Of a DNA stretch of 64,000 bases, positions 8,225-62,874 are shown piece by piece. This DNA comes from Pararhodobacter sp. SW119. Its GTDB lineage: Bacteria > Pseudomonadota > Alphaproteobacteria > Rhodobacterales > Rhodobacteraceae. Position 1 is the stretch's first letter, and each line of letters opens with the position of its first letter. A program made the position numbers and the translations under genes. The notes under the pieces are model-generated. The model saw nothing but the letters and a program-made list of their open reading frames with translations, was not told the origin of the DNA and searched no databases. The DNA lies in contig NZ_JADDJF010000011.1 in NCBI RefSeq assembly GCF_017811755.1, positions 1-64,000 on the forward strand, read 5' to 3'.

Positions 8225-8300
<76 letters not shown>

Positions 8301-8410: not shown

Positions 8411-8492
8411 GCGTCCAAGGTTGGACGCTCTCGCAACCAACCGATATAGAAGGATAAAATCGGAAAATTAACCGCAATGAAACTTTCGCCGA
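8411..8492 (-). repeat. Fixed-core/variable-palindrome element, copy A
   Basis: In minus orientation the core AAAGTTTCATTGCGGTTAA (8468-8486) is followed by a 39-nt AT-rich spacer and then by a palindrome with arms GCGTCCAA and TTGGACGC (8411-8428, two-base centre). The dyad axis is 48.5 bp from the end of the core, the same spacing as in copies B, C, D and E. The core lies 49 bp beyond the stop of the pseudo-subtilase gene. Copy B lies in inverted orientation at the other end of the same gene cluster. Confidence 0.8.
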
Positions 8493-8535: not shown

Positions 8536-10065
8536 TCAGGCCGGCAGTTCGGCGCCGACCGTGGCCAGGGCGGCCGCGGCGCGATAGGCGGGCACGGGAC
8601 AGTCGTCGGGGCTGGCCGCGCGCAGCAGCGGGTCCCAGACCGGAAGCCCGGCGCCCGCCGTACCGGGCGGCAAGGCGCCTGCGTGGCAGCGCGCGGACAG
8701 CGCGGCCAGAAGTGCCGCGGCGCGCGCGGTGCTGCGCGGGCTGCCGGCAAGGTCGGGCTCGGTCTGCAGAAGCCGCGCCAGAAACCCGGTGACCAGCCCC
8801 GCGGCAAGCGCCGTGCCGTCCAGCGCGGCAATGCCCTCTGCCACGTCGAGGACGAGCCCCGCGCCCGGCGCGGCAAGGTCCACGCCCGGCCCGCGGGCGG
8901 TGAAGCCGGCCAGCGCCTCGGACCCCGGTGCGCCCCCCGAGCCGGCCAGGGCCGCCACGGACAGCACCGCGCGCCCGGCGGCGGGTTCCATCACCGCGCC
9001 GGCGCTGTCGCCCGCGGGCGCGATGGCGACGACCCCCGCGGCGCGCGCGCGCGCCAGCGCCGCCGCCAGCGCCTGGCAGGGGCGGTCGGCGGCAAAACCC
9101 AGGTCCAGCAGGTCGACGCCGGCGGCGATGCTCCAGTCGATCGCCGCGATCAGGTCCGAGGCGCGCGGCGCCTCCGGCAGGCGCAGAACCTCAAGAAAAA
9201 CACCCGGGGCGGCGGCGGCAATCAGCGCCGCCACCGGTGAGGGAGAGGCACCGGCCGGCAACCAGCCTTCGACCAGCGCGCCGCTTTCGACGCGGGACCG
9301 GACGAAGGGGGACGCCGCCGCCCCGGGGACAAGCACCGCGACGCGGACGGGCTGCGCGCCCGGAACCGTCAGAAGCGGTGCAAGATCAAGGCCCATCGCT
9401 TCGACCCCGTGATCGCGGGGCGCGCCAAGCGCGGAGTCGAGGGGCGAAAGGACCAGGGTGTTCAGCCGCACCGCCGCATCGGGTGCGGTCTGGCGCAGGA
9501 CCGGGCGCAACATCTCGCGCCCCCAGAACCCCACCGGCGGCACCAGGACAAGGCGCCGCACCGCCGCCGGGTTGTCGCTGCCGACCGGCAGGCGGGCCAA
9601 CCCCTCGGCATCGGTGATCGCCGGCGTGGGATCGTCGATGCCGGCACCTTCGGCCAGCAGGCGCACACCGGCGAGCGGCAACCCATCGGGATCGGTGACC
9701 CGGAAATGCAGCGCGCCGCGCGGCCGGGTATCGGCGCCGGACGCCGCGGGGCGGGGATGGCGCGTGCCCATCGGCCCGGCCTGGTAGGCATGGCTTACAT
9801 CCGCCTCGACGCAGAGTGCAGGACCGTAGCGCTGGCGCAGGACGTCCAGCGCGCCGGGATCGAGCACCGCGGCCAGCGTGTCGTGCCCCCGCGTGGCGGC
9901 GGCAAGGCGGCGCGGCGGCGGGGCGTCGGCGGGTTGCAGGGCGCGCAGGTCGGCCTCCAGCCCGTCGAGGTCGGGCAGCCAGCCCTGCCAGCAGGCAAGG
10001 CGCATCGCCCCCATCGTGTCCGGCGACAGCGAAAGCAGGAAGGCGTCGGTCTGCGGGGCGGGCAT
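8536..10065 (-). CDS. Catalytically dead subtilisin-like protein (pseudo-S8 peptidase)
   Basis: A 509-residue protein with an S8-peptidase scaffold but no catalytic residues. Fold markers remain: LIAAIDWSIAAGVDLLDLGF, GVVAIAPAGDS, FTARGPGVDLAAPG and DGTALAAGLVTGFLA. However, the usual DTG strand reads VRVAVLVPG, no HGT motif is present, the oxyanion Asn is Asp, and the Ser of GTS is Ala419. Before the S8 part there is a prodomain-like N terminus and a transthyretin/CarboxypepD-reg-like segment (LHFRVTDPDGLPLAGVRL). The ATG at 10065 follows GGAGGA. No signal peptide is visible. It is divergent from the SARP-like regulator and close to an intact subtilase (12970-14370), so a scaffold, inhibitor or sensor role is plausible. 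The function is unknown. Confidence 0.75.
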   Translation of the reverse strand: MPAPQTDAFLLSLSPDTMGAMRLACWQGWLPDLDGLEADLRALQPADAPPPRRLAAATRGHDTLAAVLDPGALDVLRQRYGPALCVEADVSHAYQAGPMGTRHPRPAASGADTRPRGALHFRVTDPDGLPLAGVRLLAEGAGIDDPTPAITDAEGLARLPVGSDNPAAVRRLVLVPPVGFWGREMLRPVLRQTAPDAAVRLNTLVLSPLDSALGAPRDHGVEAMGLDLAPLLTVPGAQPVRVAVLVPGAAASPFVRSRVESGALVEGWLPAGASPSPVAALIAAAAPGVFLEVLRLPEAPRASDLIAAIDWSIAAGVDLLDLGFAADRPCQALAAALARARAAGVVAIAPAGDSAGAVMEPAAGRAVLSVAALAGSGGAPGSEALAGFTARGPGVDLAAPGAGLVLDVAEGIAALDGTALAAGLVTGFLARLLQTEPDLAGSPRSTARAAALLAALSARCHAGALPPGTAGAGLPVWDPLLRAASPDDCPVPAYRAAAALATVGAELPA

Positions 10066-10239
10066 GGGGTTCCTCCACTGGCGGGGATGGCGGGCGATCC
10101 GGTGCCGCAGCCATAGCAACCGGGACGTTAGACCGGCGTTAGGGGGACCGCCGCCCGCGCCCGCCCACCGGCTAACGGCGCGCTAACACCGGCTGACAGA
10201 GGGTGATTTTGTGTTAGGCTGGCCAGACAGGAGACCCAC
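10066..10239. promoter_or_regulatory. Divergent promoter with 11-bp-phased GTTAG/GCTAAC repeats
   Basis: The 174-bp spacer between the pseudo-subtilase and the SARP-like gene holds repeated half-sites. GTTAG starts at 10127 and 10138 (period 11) and again at 10213. GCTAAC starts at 10171 and 10182 (period 11), with GCTGAC at 10192 (period 10). The two groups are inverted with respect to each other. Direct heptamers at 11-bp intervals are the known architecture of SARP-family operators, so these are probably binding sites for the adjacent regulator. Promoter boxes are not obvious. Confidence 0.6.
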
Positions 10240-12106: not shown

Positions 12107-12970
12107 ATGAGCTTTCTGGACATCCTGAGCGAGGCGCGCTTCACCGTGACCGAGGTCGCGCTGCGCCTCGACGCGGTGCAGGCCGCGCTTGAACCGGCGA
12201 GCGGCGGCACCGGCAGCGCCGGCGGCGCCGCGCTCTTCGCGCTCAACCGCAATCGGAACCGCAACCGCAACCGCAACCGCAACCGCAATCGAAACCGGAA
12301 CCGCAACCGCAACGACAGCGCCGGGCCCGACCTGTCGATCCAGGAGCCGTGGAAGGAACGCGCCAGGCTGCACGAACTGGCCGCCAACTGGACCGACCTG
12401 CCGCTGGCCCCGCCCCCCGACCCGGACCAGCTGCGCCACGAGGCGCTGGAACTGCTGGAAAAGCAGCACCGCCTGCGCCAGCCCGAGGAAGCCCTGCGCC
12501 GCGAGGAGATCTTGACCGAGGCCGAACTGGAATTGTCGCGCTACCTGCGTCCCCTGGGGATCGAGACCACGGGCGGCTTCGAGGCGACCATCCACCTGAT
12601 GCTGGTCCTGATGGCCCTGACCGACGAGGTCGGGCTGCGCTACAAGGCGCGCTGGAACGTGCCCCGCCCCAACCAGGTGGAGCCGCGCCTGCGCCCCTTC
12701 ATCGCCCAGCCGGCGCATGCCAGCTACCCGTCGAACCACGCCTTCCAGTCCTTCGCGCTGGCCTTCGTCTTCTGCCGCCTCCTGCCCGAGCATCCGGCGT
12801 CCAGCGAGCTCTTCCGCTCGGCCCGCCGGATCGCCGAGAACCGCGAATGGGCCGGGCTGCATTACGCCGCCGACACGCAGGCGGGATACGAGCTGGCCCG
12901 GATGGTCACCCCGGTGCTGGAAGAGGTGCTGGAACCCCTGATGCTGGCCGCGCAACAGGAGTGGTTCTGA
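12107..12970 (+). CDS. PAP2/vanadium-haloperoxidase-fold protein with an Asn-Arg tract
   Basis: A 287-residue protein of the PAP2 superfamily. All three signature motifs are visible: Lys180...Arg187-Pro188 (KARWNVPRP), Ser206-Tyr-Pro-Ser-Asn-His211, and Arg246...His252...Asp256 (REWAGLHYAAD). His252 would form the phospho- or vanadate-enzyme. There are no strong membrane helices, so a soluble phosphatase or haloperoxidase-like enzyme is likely rather than a membrane lipid phosphatase. Residues 47-69 are an uninterrupted (Asn-Arg)11-Asn tract, a low-complexity insertion before the catalytic part. The stop overlaps the next ATG (TGATG), tying it to the subtilase. The substrate is unknown. Confidence 0.75.
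   Translation: MSFLDILSEARFTVTEVALRLDAVQAALEPASGGTGSAGGAALFALNRNRNRNRNRNRNRNRNRNRNRNDSAGPDLSIQEPWKERARLHELAANWTDLPLAPPPDPDQLRHEALELLEKQHRLRQPEEALRREEILTEAELELSRYLRPLGIETTGGFEATIHLMLVLMALTDEVGLRYKARWNVPRPNQVEPRLRPFIAQPAHASYPSNHAFQSFALAFVFCRLLPEHPASSELFRSARRIAENREWAGLHYAADTQAGYELARMVTPVLEEVLEPLMLAAQQEWF
12245..12313 (+). repeat. Coding hexanucleotide repeat (AACCGC)n, 11.5 units
   Basis: Sixty-nine bases of the PAP2-like gene consist of AACCGC units, a few with synonymous variants (AATCGG, AATCGA, AACCGG). They encode alternating Asn and Arg. Slippage would add or remove Asn-Arg pairs without shifting the frame. Confidence 0.9.
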
Positions 12971-14370
12971 TGCCCGATGCCGCAACGACCGTGATCCGCC
13001 CCCCCTATCCGGCGCATGACGCGCTGTGGCCGCTGGTGATGATGGGCGTGCTGACCGCCGACCACGCCCCCAACGGCTGGACCCTGCCCGCGCCCGCGCG
13101 GCGCACGCGGGTGGCGCTGATCGACACCTCGGTGGCGGACGGGCATCCGAACCTCGACCCCGCGCTGTCGCGCGATCTGGCCTTCGATCTCTTCTCGACG
13201 CGCCTCGGCGCCTTTCCCTGGCGCGCCAGCGACGCGCCCTTGGACAACCTGCAGCTGGGCGACAGCGCCGCGGCGGTGGCGGGCCTGCCGCATTGCACCG
13301 CGCTTCTGGTCGCGTTGAAGGCGCGGCTCAGACCCGGGCAGATGCCGCGCATCGGCGGGGTCCGTCCGGCGACGCGGGCGACCTTCTCGGCGCACGGGAC
13401 CGCCGCGGCCGGGCTGATCGCCGCCCGCCCGGCGCGCGCCCGCACGGAGGAGGCGCACCTGCCCGGCGACACGGATGGCGAGATCGCGCTGCCCTTCATG
13501 GGCGTCGATCCCAGCGCCGAACTGGTCCCGATCTCGACCAATTTCGACCCCGACCCCGAGGCGCTGATCCTCGCCTTCCTCTATGCCGACCTGATCGGCG
13601 CGGATGTCATCGTGCTGCCGCGCATCCTGCCCGACCCGCTGCGCACCGTGCCCGAAATGCCCGCGCACGACATCGACGGCACCGCATTCGCCGATGCCGC
13701 CGCACCCAGCCCGCTGGGCCAGAAACAATGGGAGATGTGGGACGAACTGGCGCAACTGATCGTCAATGTCTCGCTGCGCCGGCCGGTGGTCTGCGCGGCC
13801 GGAAACGCCAACGAGGAATTCGGCATCTACCCGGCCAATCTGGCGGCCGACGACAACGGCGTGATCGCCGTGGGCGCGGTCAATGCCCGCGGCTGGCCCT
13901 GCAGCTATTCGGCGGCATCGGGCCTGACGATCTGGGGGCCCAGCAGCGACGGCGAACGCTTCGACCGGGCCGAGGTGCGGCTGGACGTGCGCCGCCACGA
14001 CTACGACCCGGTGGGCGTGCCGGCCGACAACGCCAACCACCGCTTTTCGCCCTTCAGCCTGATCGCGACCGACGTGCCGGGGCGCGGCGGCTACGCGGCC
14101 AGCCCCTTTCCCGGCCCTGAACCCGACGGCGATCTGCGCGAATACGGCTCGTACTATTGCCGTTTCGGCGGCACCTCGGGCGCGGCGGCGCTGGTCGGCG
14201 GGTTCCTGTCGCTGGGCCGCAGCCTTGGCCACTGGGACCGCGACGACGGCGGCATCGCCGCGCGCGACTGGCTGCTGTCCCGGTCAAAACCGCTGGCCGC
14301 CGAACGCGGCGATGCGCGCATTCCGGTGCTGTCGGGTGAGCCGGTCTTTCCCGACGACTCCACCCCCTGA
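12970..14370 (+). CDS. Subtilase (S8 family serine peptidase) with intact triad
   Basis: A 466-residue S8 peptidase. Asp52 (VALIDTS), His142 (SAHGTAAAG), the oxyanion Asn279 (CAAGNANEE) and Ser403 (GGTSGAAALVGG) are all present. There is no signal peptide or long propeptide, so it is probably cytoplasmic or exported by an unrecognised route. Between His and Asn it has long insertions compared with minimal subtilisins. The ATG overlaps the stop of the PAP2-like gene. Together with the dead paralogue at 8536-10065 and the SARP-like regulator it forms a compact module; the intact and dead subtilases may interact. Repeat copy B follows 20 bp after the stop. Confidence 0.85.
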   Translation: MPDAATTVIRPPYPAHDALWPLVMMGVLTADHAPNGWTLPAPARRTRVALIDTSVADGHPNLDPALSRDLAFDLFSTRLGAFPWRASDAPLDNLQLGDSAAAVAGLPHCTALLVALKARLRPGQMPRIGGVRPATRATFSAHGTAAAGLIAARPARARTEEAHLPGDTDGEIALPFMGVDPSAELVPISTNFDPDPEALILAFLYADLIGADVIVLPRILPDPLRTVPEMPAHDIDGTAFADAAAPSPLGQKQWEMWDELAQLIVNVSLRRPVVCAAGNANEEFGIYPANLAADDNGVIAVGAVNARGWPCSYSAASGLTIWGPSSDGERFDRAEVRLDVRRHDYDPVGVPADNANHRFSPFSLIATDVPGRGGYAASPFPGPEPDGDLREYGSYYCRFGGTSGAAALVGGFLSLGRSLGHWDRDDGGIAARDWLLSRSKPLAAERGDARIPVLSGEPVFPDDSTP

Positions 14371-14390
14371 GCCCGTTTCGCCCCGCCGTG

Positions 14391-14469
14391 GCGAAAGTTT
14401 CATTGCGGTTAACGGCGGATTTTCATGAAACAATTTCAGTGCGTTGCGAAAGTGTGCACGCGTGCACAC
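14391..14469 (+). repeat. Fixed-core/variable-palindrome element, copy B
   Basis: Core AAAGTTTCATTGCGGTTAA at 14394-14412, AT-rich spacer, then the perfect 18-bp palindrome GTGTGCACGCGTGCACAC at 14452-14469. The dyad axis is 48.5 bp from the core end. It sits between the convergent 3' ends of the subtilase gene and fpr, with the palindrome two bases from the fpr stop codon, so it may end transcription from both sides. Confidence 0.85.
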
Positions 14470-14471
14470 CC

Positions 14472-15257
14472 CTAGCCGACAAAGGCTTTTTCGACCACGA
14501 AGTCGCCCGGTTGCGCGTTCGATCCTTCCTGCAGGCCCCAGTCCTTCAAGAGCGCCGACATGTCGCGGTTGAAGGCCAGCGACCCGCAGACCATGACCCG
14601 GTCGGTCTCGGCCGTCAGGGGGCCGGGCTGGCGCAGTTCGGCAAAGGCCCGGCCCGAGGCCAGCAGATCGGTGATCCGCCCCATCCGCGGCGACGTCTCG
14701 CGCGTCGTCGTCGGATGATAGTGCAGCCGGTCGCCGACCATCGCGCCGATCAGCGGGTCGGATTTCAGCGCGCAGATCACCTGCCGCCCGTAAGCCAGTT
14801 CCGCCGCCGTGCGGCAGGCATGCATGACCACCACCCGGCCGTAGCCCTCCCAGGTCTCGGGGTCGCGCAGCAGGCTGGCGAAGGGCGCGAAGCCGGTGCC
14901 GGTGGCCAGCATCCACAGCCGCCAGCCCGGGCGCAGCGCGTCATGGACCAGCGTGCCCACGGGCTTCGGGCGCAGGATGATCGGATCGCCCGGCCGGACG
15001 TGCTGCAGGCGCGAGGTCAGCGGCCCGTCCGGCACCTTGATCGAGTAGAATTCCAGCGTGTCGTCCCAGGCCGGCGAGGCGATGGAATAGGCGCGCAGCA
15101 GCGGCTTGCCCTCCGCGCCCGGCAGCCCGATCATCACGAACTCGCCCGAACGGAAGCGCAGGCTGCGCGGCCGCGTGACGCGGAAGGAAAACAGCTGGTC
15201 GGTCCAGTGCGTGACCTCGGTCACGGTCTGCAGATCGGTGCGCAGCGCCTGGTTCAT
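14472..15257 (-). CDS. fpr: Ferredoxin/flavodoxin-NADP reductase
   Basis: A 261-residue FAD enzyme that moves electrons between NADPH and ferredoxin or flavodoxin. The FAD site is RAYSIASP, the NADP site is MLATGTGFAPFASLLRD, and the C terminus ends FVVEKAFVG as in bacterial subclass-I FPRs. It is the last gene of the sulfate-assimilation operon; its ATG overlaps the DUF934 stop. The likely task is to feed electrons, through ferredoxin, to the siroheme sulfite reductase encoded upstream. GGGGGAGGG precedes the start. Confidence 0.92.
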   Translation of the reverse strand: MNQALRTDLQTVTEVTHWTDQLFSFRVTRPRSLRFRSGEFVMIGLPGAEGKPLLRAYSIASPAWDDTLEFYSIKVPDGPLTSRLQHVRPGDPIILRPKPVGTLVHDALRPGWRLWMLATGTGFAPFASLLRDPETWEGYGRVVVMHACRTAAELAYGRQVICALKSDPLIGAMVGDRLHYHPTTTRETSPRMGRITDLLASGRAFAELRQPGPLTAETDRVMVCGSLAFNRDMSALLKDWGLQEGSNAQPGDFVVEKAFVG

Positions 15258-24252: not shown

Positions 24253-24331
24253 CCAAAAGTTTCATTGCGGTTAACGCCGGCGGAATACCGCTTTAAATCA
24301 AGGTCTTGGCGGAGTGCTCAAATTTGAGCAC
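24253..24331 (+). repeat. Fixed-core/variable-palindrome element, copy C
   Basis: Core AAAGTTTCATTGCGGTTAA at 24256-24274, AT-rich spacer, then the perfect 18-bp palindrome GTGCTCAAATTTGAGCAC at 24314-24331. The axis lies 48.5 bp from the core end. It is placed between the convergent 3' ends of the hypothetical gene and preA, with the palindrome 18 bp from the preA stop. The 150 bp before the core contain a short tandem GCGATGCCAC duplication and nothing else recognised. Confidence 0.85.
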
Positions 24332-29190: not shown

Positions 29191-29266
29191 GCGCCCCCCG
29201 ACTGCGGACGCGCCGACGCATCGATTCCTGTCCCCGGAGGTGTGATCCGACGACGAAATCGGCGGC

Positions 29267-29344
29267 GGTCCACGCGTGGACCAAGAACCAACTCCATGAC
29301 ATCATTCGATAAGCCAAAAAATCTTAACCGGATTTCAAGCATTG
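29267..29344 (-). repeat. Fixed-core/variable-palindrome element, degenerate copy G
   Basis: In minus orientation a weak core ending in CCGGTTAA (at 29324) is followed by an AT-rich spacer and by the perfect 16-bp palindrome GGTCCACGCGTGGACC at 29267-29282, preceded by TTGG. The axis is 49.5 bp from the core end, as in copy F. It lies about 77 bp after the DUF3775 stop and faces copy D core to core, so the 29191-29540 gap holds two elements. The first half of the core no longer matches, so membership rests on GGTTAA, spacing and palindrome. Confidence 0.5.
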
Positions 29345-29426: not shown

Positions 29427-29505
29427 CCAAAAGTTTCATTGCGGTTAATCGCCCAGATATTTCTAACCATATCAATGTCTTGTCGAAGCGTTCAAATTTG
29501 CACGC
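29427..29505 (+). repeat. Fixed-core/variable-palindrome element, copy D
   Basis: Core AAAGTTTCATTGCGGTTAA at 29430-29448, AT-rich spacer, then the palindrome GCGTTCAAATTTGCACGC at 29488-29505, with one mismatched pair (T29492/C29501). The axis is 48.5 bp from the core end. It lies 35 bp from the stop of the tyrosine phosphatase gene, between convergent transcription units. Confidence 0.8.
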
Positions 29506-54097: not shown

Positions 54098-54141
54098 CCG
54101 GACGATTGCCAGCCTGCCCCCGTGGCCCTCAACCGGCCGCG

Positions 54142-54218
54142 CGTCCAAATTTGGACGTTTTTCCAACATCTTGATATGTAATCGGAAAAGCACCCCCGTT
54201 AACCACAACGAAAGCTTT
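54142..54218 (-). repeat. Fixed-core/variable-palindrome element, copy F
   Basis: In minus orientation the diverged core AAAGCTTTCGTTGTGGTTAA (54199-54218) precedes an AT-rich spacer and the perfect 16-bp palindrome CGTCCAAATTTGGACG (54142-54157). The axis is 49.5 bp from the core end. On the plus strand the palindrome is followed by TTTTT, so it could end the TetR transcript. It is one of three repeats in the 54098-54854 gap. Confidence 0.7.
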
Positions 54219-62791: not shown

Positions 62792-62874
62792 AGAAGTTTC
62801 ATTGCGGTTAACGCCGGAATTTTCTGATTTTATATCAGGCGCTTGCCCGGATGCGCACGCGTGCGCATCCGGGC
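62792..62874 (+). repeat. Fixed-core/variable-palindrome element, copy E
   Basis: Core AAGTTTCATTGCGGTTAA at 62794-62811, AT-rich spacer, then a perfect 30-bp palindrome at 62845-62874 centred on ACGCGT, the longest of the family. The axis is 48.5 bp from the core end. It sits between the convergent DMT transporter and DUF4139 genes. Confidence 0.88.

Follow-up and report, generated by a model that had tools for sequence, protein, structure and literature searches.

A repeated intergenic module of core, IHF-consensus site and palindrome behind genes of Pararhodobacter sp. SW119

The 64,000-nucleotide stretch of Pararhodobacter sp. SW119 DNA analysed here (the window) carries seven copies of a DNA module of about 85 bp, and about 150 copies of this module stand directly behind genes of the same genome (G000). 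Three modules are kept at fixed distances from one another: a core ending in GGTTAA, an AT-rich stretch with an IHF-consensus site, and a palindrome. Re-reading of the sequence showed the seven originally predicted sites to be correctly placed, their palindromes to be self-complementary (8 or 9 of 9 pairs each) and the distance from the last base of GGTTAA to the dyad axis to be 48.5 bp in five sites and 49.5 bp in two (29267 and 54142). The copies and their parts are the following.

62793 to 62811, plus strand: core of the focus copy, GAAGTTTCATTGCGGTTAA (window reading and logo of 98 copies)
62833 to 62845, plus strand: IHF-consensus site of the focus copy, TATCAGGCGCTTG (0 mismatches to WATCARNNNNTTR), AT-rich side toward the core
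62851 to 62868, plus strand: 18-bp palindrome of the focus copy, ATGCGCACG/CGTGCGCAT, axis 48.5 bp from GGTTAA
62845 to 62874, plus strand: full pairing of the focus copy palindrome, which extends to 30 bp
8411 to 8486, minus strand: copy with core 8468-8486, IHF-type site 8434-8446 (TATCGGTTGGTTG) and palindrome 8411-8428, centre CC
14394 to 14469, plus strand: copy with core 14394-14412, IHF-type site 14434-14446 and palindrome 14452-14469
24256 to 24331, plus strand: copy with core 24256-24274, IHF-type site 24296-24308 and palindrome 24314-24331
29266 to 29342, minus strand: second-subtype copy (TTGAAATCCGGTTAAG) with core 29324-29342, IHF-type site 29289-29301 and palindrome 29266-29283, axis at 49.5 bp
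29430 to 29505, plus strand: copy with core 29430-29448, IHF-type site 29470-29482 and palindrome 29488-29505, one T/C mismatch
54141 to 54217, minus strand: copy with diverged core 54199-54217, IHF-type site 54164-54176, palindrome 54141-54158, axis at 49.5 bp

The ORF caller places all seven copies between convergent protein genes, and the original count of six is fair, because a minus-strand tRNA (8228-8300) stands between the left gene and the 8411 element. The gene of a FAD/NAD oxidoreductase (14472-15257, minus strand) ends two bases from the copy at 14394-14469, while the copies at 29266 and 29430 are head-to-head partners separated by 222 bp axis to axis. In a congener, G014, the ortholog of the 54141 copy (L067/L092) has a 48.5-bp distance and a different palindrome centre. 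Two genes with a subtilase (Peptidase_S8) match, at 8536-10119 (minus strand) and 12349-14370 (plus strand), adjoin the first two element copies.

A logo of the 98 copies with 48.5-bp spacing shows conservation between positions of about -6 and +74 relative to the first base of the core and contains, in this order, C(A/G)AAAGTTTCATTGCGGTTAACG, the AT-rich stretch, W-A-T-C-A-R-N4-T-T-R, six variable bases, the palindrome and then C-rich sequence. A second core subtype, TTGAAATCCGGTTAAG/C-AAAA, mostly has the 49.5-bp spacing and has GGTTAA in common with the first; this spacing is not confined to it, being found also in the first-subtype copy at 54142. The AT-rich spacer, described at first as little conserved, does have drifting letters, but it is not featureless, since the IHF-consensus site lies in it at one exact place. 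A promoter reading of TTGCGG or TTGATA was rejected on inspection of the logo, the spacings being unusable.

The 16-bp core GTTTCATTGCGGTTAA occurs exactly 52 times in the 4.51-Mb genome and 144 times with up to 3 mismatches, against 4 for the pattern read backwards. A covariance model built from 29 copies (R1) gave 141 matches in this genome at E<=0.01 and at least 150 at E<=10, so counted as a lower bound. When copies were picked by the core alone and the axis was sought 20 to 100 bp away, the best palindrome axis fell at 47-50 bp in all 50 analysable exact cores of the 52 (47 at 48.5 bp, 3 at 49.5 bp), and mismatched cores of the same genome had it at the expected distance in 36/36 (one mismatch), 17/19 (two) and 13/18 (three) cases. 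This genome-wide search for cores without palindromes does not refute the fixed spacing. Further comparisons used 158 copies, 119 of SW119 and 39 of G014 and a third genome, G008, retained from 163 core matches where at least 6 of 9 pairs formed. Six contig ends of the SW119 assembly lie inside an element match (C2 start, C10 end, both ends of C24, C122 start and C164 end), where the fraction of the genome taken up by elements would predict about one, and contig C170 starts near another.

At one palindrome-anchored place, 149 of the 158 copies match WATCARNNNNTTR, which we take to be the IHF consensus, with at most two mismatches (42 with none, 65 with one, 42 with two). Shuffled spacers would give about 1.3 such matches, and the complementary strand gave none at all. 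The AT-rich side presumably sits where an IHF site would have it. Members of the host's bacterial family are known to encode IHF, and from the consensus match we infer that IHF would bind here.

At stem pairs -2 to -7 of the 158 copies, 932 of 948 cells are Watson-Crick (0 G-T, 6 A-C and 10 other), even though between two and four alleles occur at four of the six positions. Poor pairing excluded none of the 77 exact-core copies, and in these the same pairs are Watson-Crick in 452 of 462 cells. The innermost pair is looser (126/158), and pairs -8 and -9 fade (129 and 99 of 158). Arm letters are not freely combined, GCCC arms occurring once and GTAC arms not at all. In a post hoc test of 91 perfect 16-bp palindromes with 25 distinct arms, RNA hairpin energy had a standard deviation of 0.96 kcal/mol against 1.60 in column shuffles, of which 0/300 were as low, and the 25 distinct arms alone gave the same ratio. 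Only 1.5% of 200 random stacking tables reached the Turner stem value. DNA hairpin parameters agree (0.81 vs 1.02, 0/300), and plain DNA stacking sums showed no constraint over the stem (39/300) or the duplex (44/300).

Orthologous elements allow the changes themselves to be counted. Fourteen pairs from 10 regions, with aligned sequence of 79-87% identity to either side and taken only where at least 5/6 inner pairs form, have 14 two-sided against 4 one-sided stem changes in 98 pairs; allowing one-sided flank support (21 ortholog pairs) gives 27 against 4. Strongly broken palindromes are therefore absent from these pairing counts, as detection demanded at least 5/6 or at least 6/9 pairs. Left out were L082/L114 and L102/L123, which are not the same place by coordinates, and same-place pairs of opposite orientation (L093/L186, L103/L159); looser sets, since replaced, had given 13 vs 4 (8 pairs) and 15 vs 4 (element similarity alone counted). 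In the 11 pairs of equal spacing, 159 of 176 core positions are identical and 150 of 276 spacer positions, which together with the two-sided changes means that the core and the self-complementarity are held in place while the spacer letters drift. The near-complete Watson-Crick stems and the mostly two-sided ortholog changes bear out the original claim that pairing or dyad symmetry itself is maintained.

Both neighbouring genes could be called, with an ORF caller trained on the window, for 113 of the 119 own copies, the other 6 lying at edges. Convergent genes surround 75 of the 113, in line with the predicted preference; 25 copies are tandem with the palindrome first, 12 tandem with the core first and 1 divergent. 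For comparison, window gaps of at least 80 bp comprise 8 convergent, 10 divergent and 11 tandem ones. No own copy lies inside a gene, and 112/113 stand behind at least one. In 24 of the 25 tandem palindrome-first copies the palindrome lies 7-72 nt past the stop codon. Since palindrome-first tandem copies are the commoner and lie near stops, one usually passes from the gene through the palindrome and the IHF-type site to the core.

Neighbouring elements 40-400 bp apart in the DNA examined of the three carriers form 23 head-to-head pairs (19 orthologous groups) and 2 other arrangements. The cores are inside in head-to-head pairs, and each convergent gene therefore meets the palindrome first. The axis-to-axis spacings are 143, 153, 164 (five times), 174, 175, 188, 197, 199, 207, 219, 221, 222, 232 and 233 bp. 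In a test likewise post hoc, with one spacing above 120 bp for each of 18 orthologous groups (164 for L078/L376, 175 for L171/L361), these follow a period of 11.30 bp with R 0.85, R at 10.5 bp being only 0.39; the uniform and the jitter null, each scanned over periods of 9-13 bp, gave 0/10,000 (p<1e-4). The L136 pair (83 bp, where two whole elements cannot fit) and two non-head-to-head neighbours in L119 were left out, and an earlier set of 20, which still included the 83-bp pair, had a period of 11.40 and R 0.83. The 13 pairs of SW119 alone give p values of 0.0002 and 0.0005. The period and phase of this genome were then applied to a small set of five independent pairs from other species, none with an orthologous head-to-head pair in SW119 (164, 164, 164, 197 and 233 bp, three thus sharing one spacing); their mean cosine is 0.92 (p=0.0003). 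Two orthologous pairs differ in spacing by 11 bp (L078 164, L376 175) and 34 bp (L171 175, L361 141), and two others differ by 1 and 0 bp.

The period exceeds 10.5 bp and is somewhat longer than the 10.9-11.0 bp repeat with which lac loops oscillate in vivo, according to the part of PMC1831498 available to us. An RNA-level function hardly accounts for phasing at about 11.3 bp, which suggests instead that the complexes lie on the same face of the DNA. As most copies are single, pairing is not required. By eye, L101 has a decayed head-to-head partner (about 2360-2490) beside an intact copy, and the orthologous SW119 copy, L177, is also partly decayed.

Fixed modules and spacing by helical turns suggest that gene ends carry a DNA-protein structure and not a plain terminator. 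Judging from sequence, we give a probability of about one half to the module being a repeated nucleoprotein element specific to this lineage, folded by IHF and with its anchor behind stop codons. In this mechanism IHF would fold the DNA back, so that a putative core-binding factor could meet a factor or structure at the palindrome, and the two complexes of a head-to-head pair would lie on one helix face and interact. The complex may mark or close transcription units at their 3' ends, chiefly where genes converge, acting as a topological boundary and/or helping to end or stabilise transcripts; the palindrome could in addition give, in either direction, an RNA hairpin whose strength is nearly constant. 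Points against this reading are the period longer than 10.5 bp, the plain DNA stacking sums that show no constraint, a symmetry reaching pair -2, further than an RNA hairpin would require, the many single copies and the 13 of 18 genomes of the genus with no element detected.

We read the element as a possible functional analogue of RIB/BIME-1 of E. coli, to which it is unrelated in sequence. RIB/RIP (BIME-1), like the element with its IHF-type site, consists of extragenic repeats that are palindromic, contain an IHF site and lie where transcription units have their 3' ends (Boccard & Prentki 1993; PMC2817692, as far as its available part goes), which supports the predicted resemblance to a REP/BIME-type nucleoid site. 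The results speak neither for nor against the gyrase binding that was also proposed. BIME-1 has two inverted REPs around an IHF-binding stretch, whereas the element here combines a single palindrome with an IHF-type site and a fixed core, and its palindromes, unlike those of E. coli BIME-1, vary copy by copy. The E. coli REP head motif, scored in what we take to be its sequence, occurs inside 0/158 elements. Because flanking E. coli REPs are absent and the palindromes are without a REP tag, the element is not a member of RIB/BIME-1. Stretches of 280 bp taken around the elements contained the motif in 19 of 158 cases, against 6 for the reversed control and a mean of 6.35 after shuffling.

A bidirectional intrinsic terminator or RNA 3'-end stabiliser, in which the palindrome would work as an RNA hairpin in both directions and the rest would be accessory, is in our estimation unlikely. 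It would account for the place at 3' ends, for the short distance from stop codon to palindrome and for the constant hairpin energy, and it agrees with the excess of wobble-type over reverse-type cells on the palindrome-first strand (inner stem 6 vs 0, pair -8 20 vs 8, pair -9 16 vs 8) as well as with the one terminator-like scan match, 14376-14396, which ends at the core of the 14394 copy. However, at least 5 T in the 8 nt after the palindrome were found in only 2/119 copies on either strand, and the terminator scan showed no excess in two of the window's 20-kb pieces (8 vs 9.2 and 8 vs 10.4 in shuffles). Pair -2, which would lie in the loop, is complementary in 155/158 copies. Moreover, the IHF-type site is left unexplained and the phasing of pairs is not predicted, so that the simple bidirectional terminator among the original proposals is disfavoured. 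Folding upstream of the core is no stronger than in the control (mean z -0.35 vs -0.13).

Within the genus, R1 finds the element in 3 of 18 genomes, G000, G014 and G008. R2, a model of the IHF-type site and palindrome without the core that was limited to the 150 best matches per genome, gave at E<=0.05, among the matches listed, 149 in G000, 140 in G014, 74 in G008, 3 in G003 and 1 in G017, and none in 13 of the 18. Two of the three matches in G003 (L341, L342) are both without the GGTTAA core. Such patchiness (3/18 genomes of the genus, about 9/393 genera), together with high copy number, nearly exclusive head-to-head order and the decayed partner seen by eye, would fit the termini of a miniature transposon of DDE type that bears an IHF site, if it were Correia-like, served by an unknown transposase and partly domesticated, with head-to-head pairs as complete copies. 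We hold this to be improbable, as the copies have no common spacer sequence beyond the motifs, and outside positions of about -6 and +74 the logo shows neither a conserved end nor a target duplication. Orthologous sites also keep their elements, at 90% identity in the core and 54% in the spacer, and orthologous spacings differ by whole turns. No clean empty site was found at the two loci compared.

Among known repeats, the Correia/NEMIS elements of Neisseria are short, with a longer form whose IHF site is bound in vitro, and the CIR repeats of Caulobacter are alphaproteobacterial intergenic repeats of ~110 bp (both from the available part of PMC2229807). In contrast to the former, the spacer is here unrelated between copies, head-to-head pairs are phased, and no terminal inverted repeat or target duplication was detected; the latter carry conserved GANTC sites, none of which is conserved in the element logo on inspection.

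The invariance of G at -7 and C at -4 (158/158 left arms each) would suit an operator of a dimeric DNA-binding protein, with symmetry arising from half-site preference or from template-switch correction of quasi-palindromes. The missing wobble intermediates fit a symmetrising mutation, and stems look fixed in other genera, though there the search pattern fixed the centre. Position -5, however, has four alleles that are mirrored in 153/158 copies, unexpected from independent half-site readout, and the arm letters combine to constant hairpin energy; the operator has in our view only a slim chance of being right.

GTAG- and CGTC-tagged REPs also occur as head-to-head dimers and in convergent and downstream locations, and CGTC-type REPs are common in alphaproteobacteria and have no dedicated transposase, as stated in the part of PMC3733652 available to us. 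The element differs from them by its IHF-type site, its core, its fixed core-to-axis distance and its outer two stem pairs, both A-T in only 10/143 elements. An unpaired GTAG or CGTC/TGTC/CCTC tag beside the stem was found in 0/143 on one strand and in 1/143 and 1/143 on the other. A REP/REPIN spread by a REP-associated tyrosine transposase, as originally suggested, would share the palindromic, extragenic and dimeric character and the convergent regions (PMC3733652, same part), yet is disfavoured and highly improbable, since Y1_Tnp matches are partial in G000, at two places only (C35:63425-63682 and C143:10-93) with no element copy among the matches listed within ~1.5 kb of them, and absent from the carriers G014 (92% complete) and G008 (82%). 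An Rfam search of the window returned one tRNA only and no match for the element, a plasmid search returned nothing for it, and no description of it was found in the open-licence literature searched.

The preferred reading, an IHF-folded nucleoprotein element, can be taken further. Tentatively, and with odds below even, these elements may constitute a new chromosomal boundary system in which IHF folds each element so that a core protein specific to the lineage touches a palindrome that is extruded or paired. If so, paired elements would interact across whole helical turns and their complexes would close the 3' ends of convergent genes, palindromes would be selected for pairing energy and not for letters, and spacing would evolve in helical quanta. 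To our knowledge, the role of IHF-binding palindromic repeats behind bacterial genes has been open since RIB/BIME were described. Some hundreds of natural variants in three related species offer a geometry read out by evolution, and the constant pairing energy, the fixed 48.5-bp arm and the 11- and 34-bp shifts between orthologous spacings make DNA-level versus RNA-level function directly testable, loop or stacking on the one side and hairpin on the other being separable with this family. Presence only in carrier species is a handle for finding the putative core-binding factor.

Beyond the genus, a search of 394 genomes, nearly one per genus, with R1 found G000 and one copy in G073. This g1-type copy (L213, G073:C61:1814-1901) lies in a 3-kb region 84% identical to L044 and has its core changed at 4/16 positions. 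R2 with stricter filters over 385 alphaproteobacterial genomes added only two weak single matches. All 25 stretches found by a scan for core plus TTG belong to two MAGs of Rhodobacteraceae, CSSed165cm_500 and CSSed165cm_288, whose prefix presumably denotes soda-lake sediment.

The pattern of an IHF-type site and a CACGCGTG centre, with up to two mismatches, was matched in 81 of the 394 genomes, mostly once. It clustered, with controls of 0 or 1, in G000 (33), G370 (20), G124 (19), G418 (15), G151 (15), G073 (12), G315 (11), G098 (10) and G045 (8). Loci were read in G370, G124, G418, G073, G315, G098 and G410 (3 matches), and the same plan, with different cores and stems, is seen in about eight further genera. 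The core differs from that of SW119, and the outer stems are genus-specific (TTTCACG/CGTGAAA in four genera, GTCCACG/CGTGGAC and GTCCCACG/CGTGGGAC), around a centre fixed by the search pattern. Of 53 such loci 52 could be classed, as 30 convergent, 10 and 9 tandem, 3 divergent and 0 in genes, with 1 at an edge, using the window-trained codon table, which is less apt for the 60% GC genomes G315 and G410. Sparsely trained codon tables made 12/53 divergent and were judged unreliable because they called antisense frames in GC-rich DNA.

By eye, the loci of G124, G418 and G315 (L285-L304) have an upstream core of AACCCTTGCCAAAAGGTTAAC type, often an inverted repeat with copy-specific arms. Finally, in element-free congeners (L197, L199, L200, L202 and L203), other short palindromes of GTAGGGTG type, such as GTAGGATGGGCAATATTGCCCATCCTAC, stand directly behind the homologue of gene 14472-15257.
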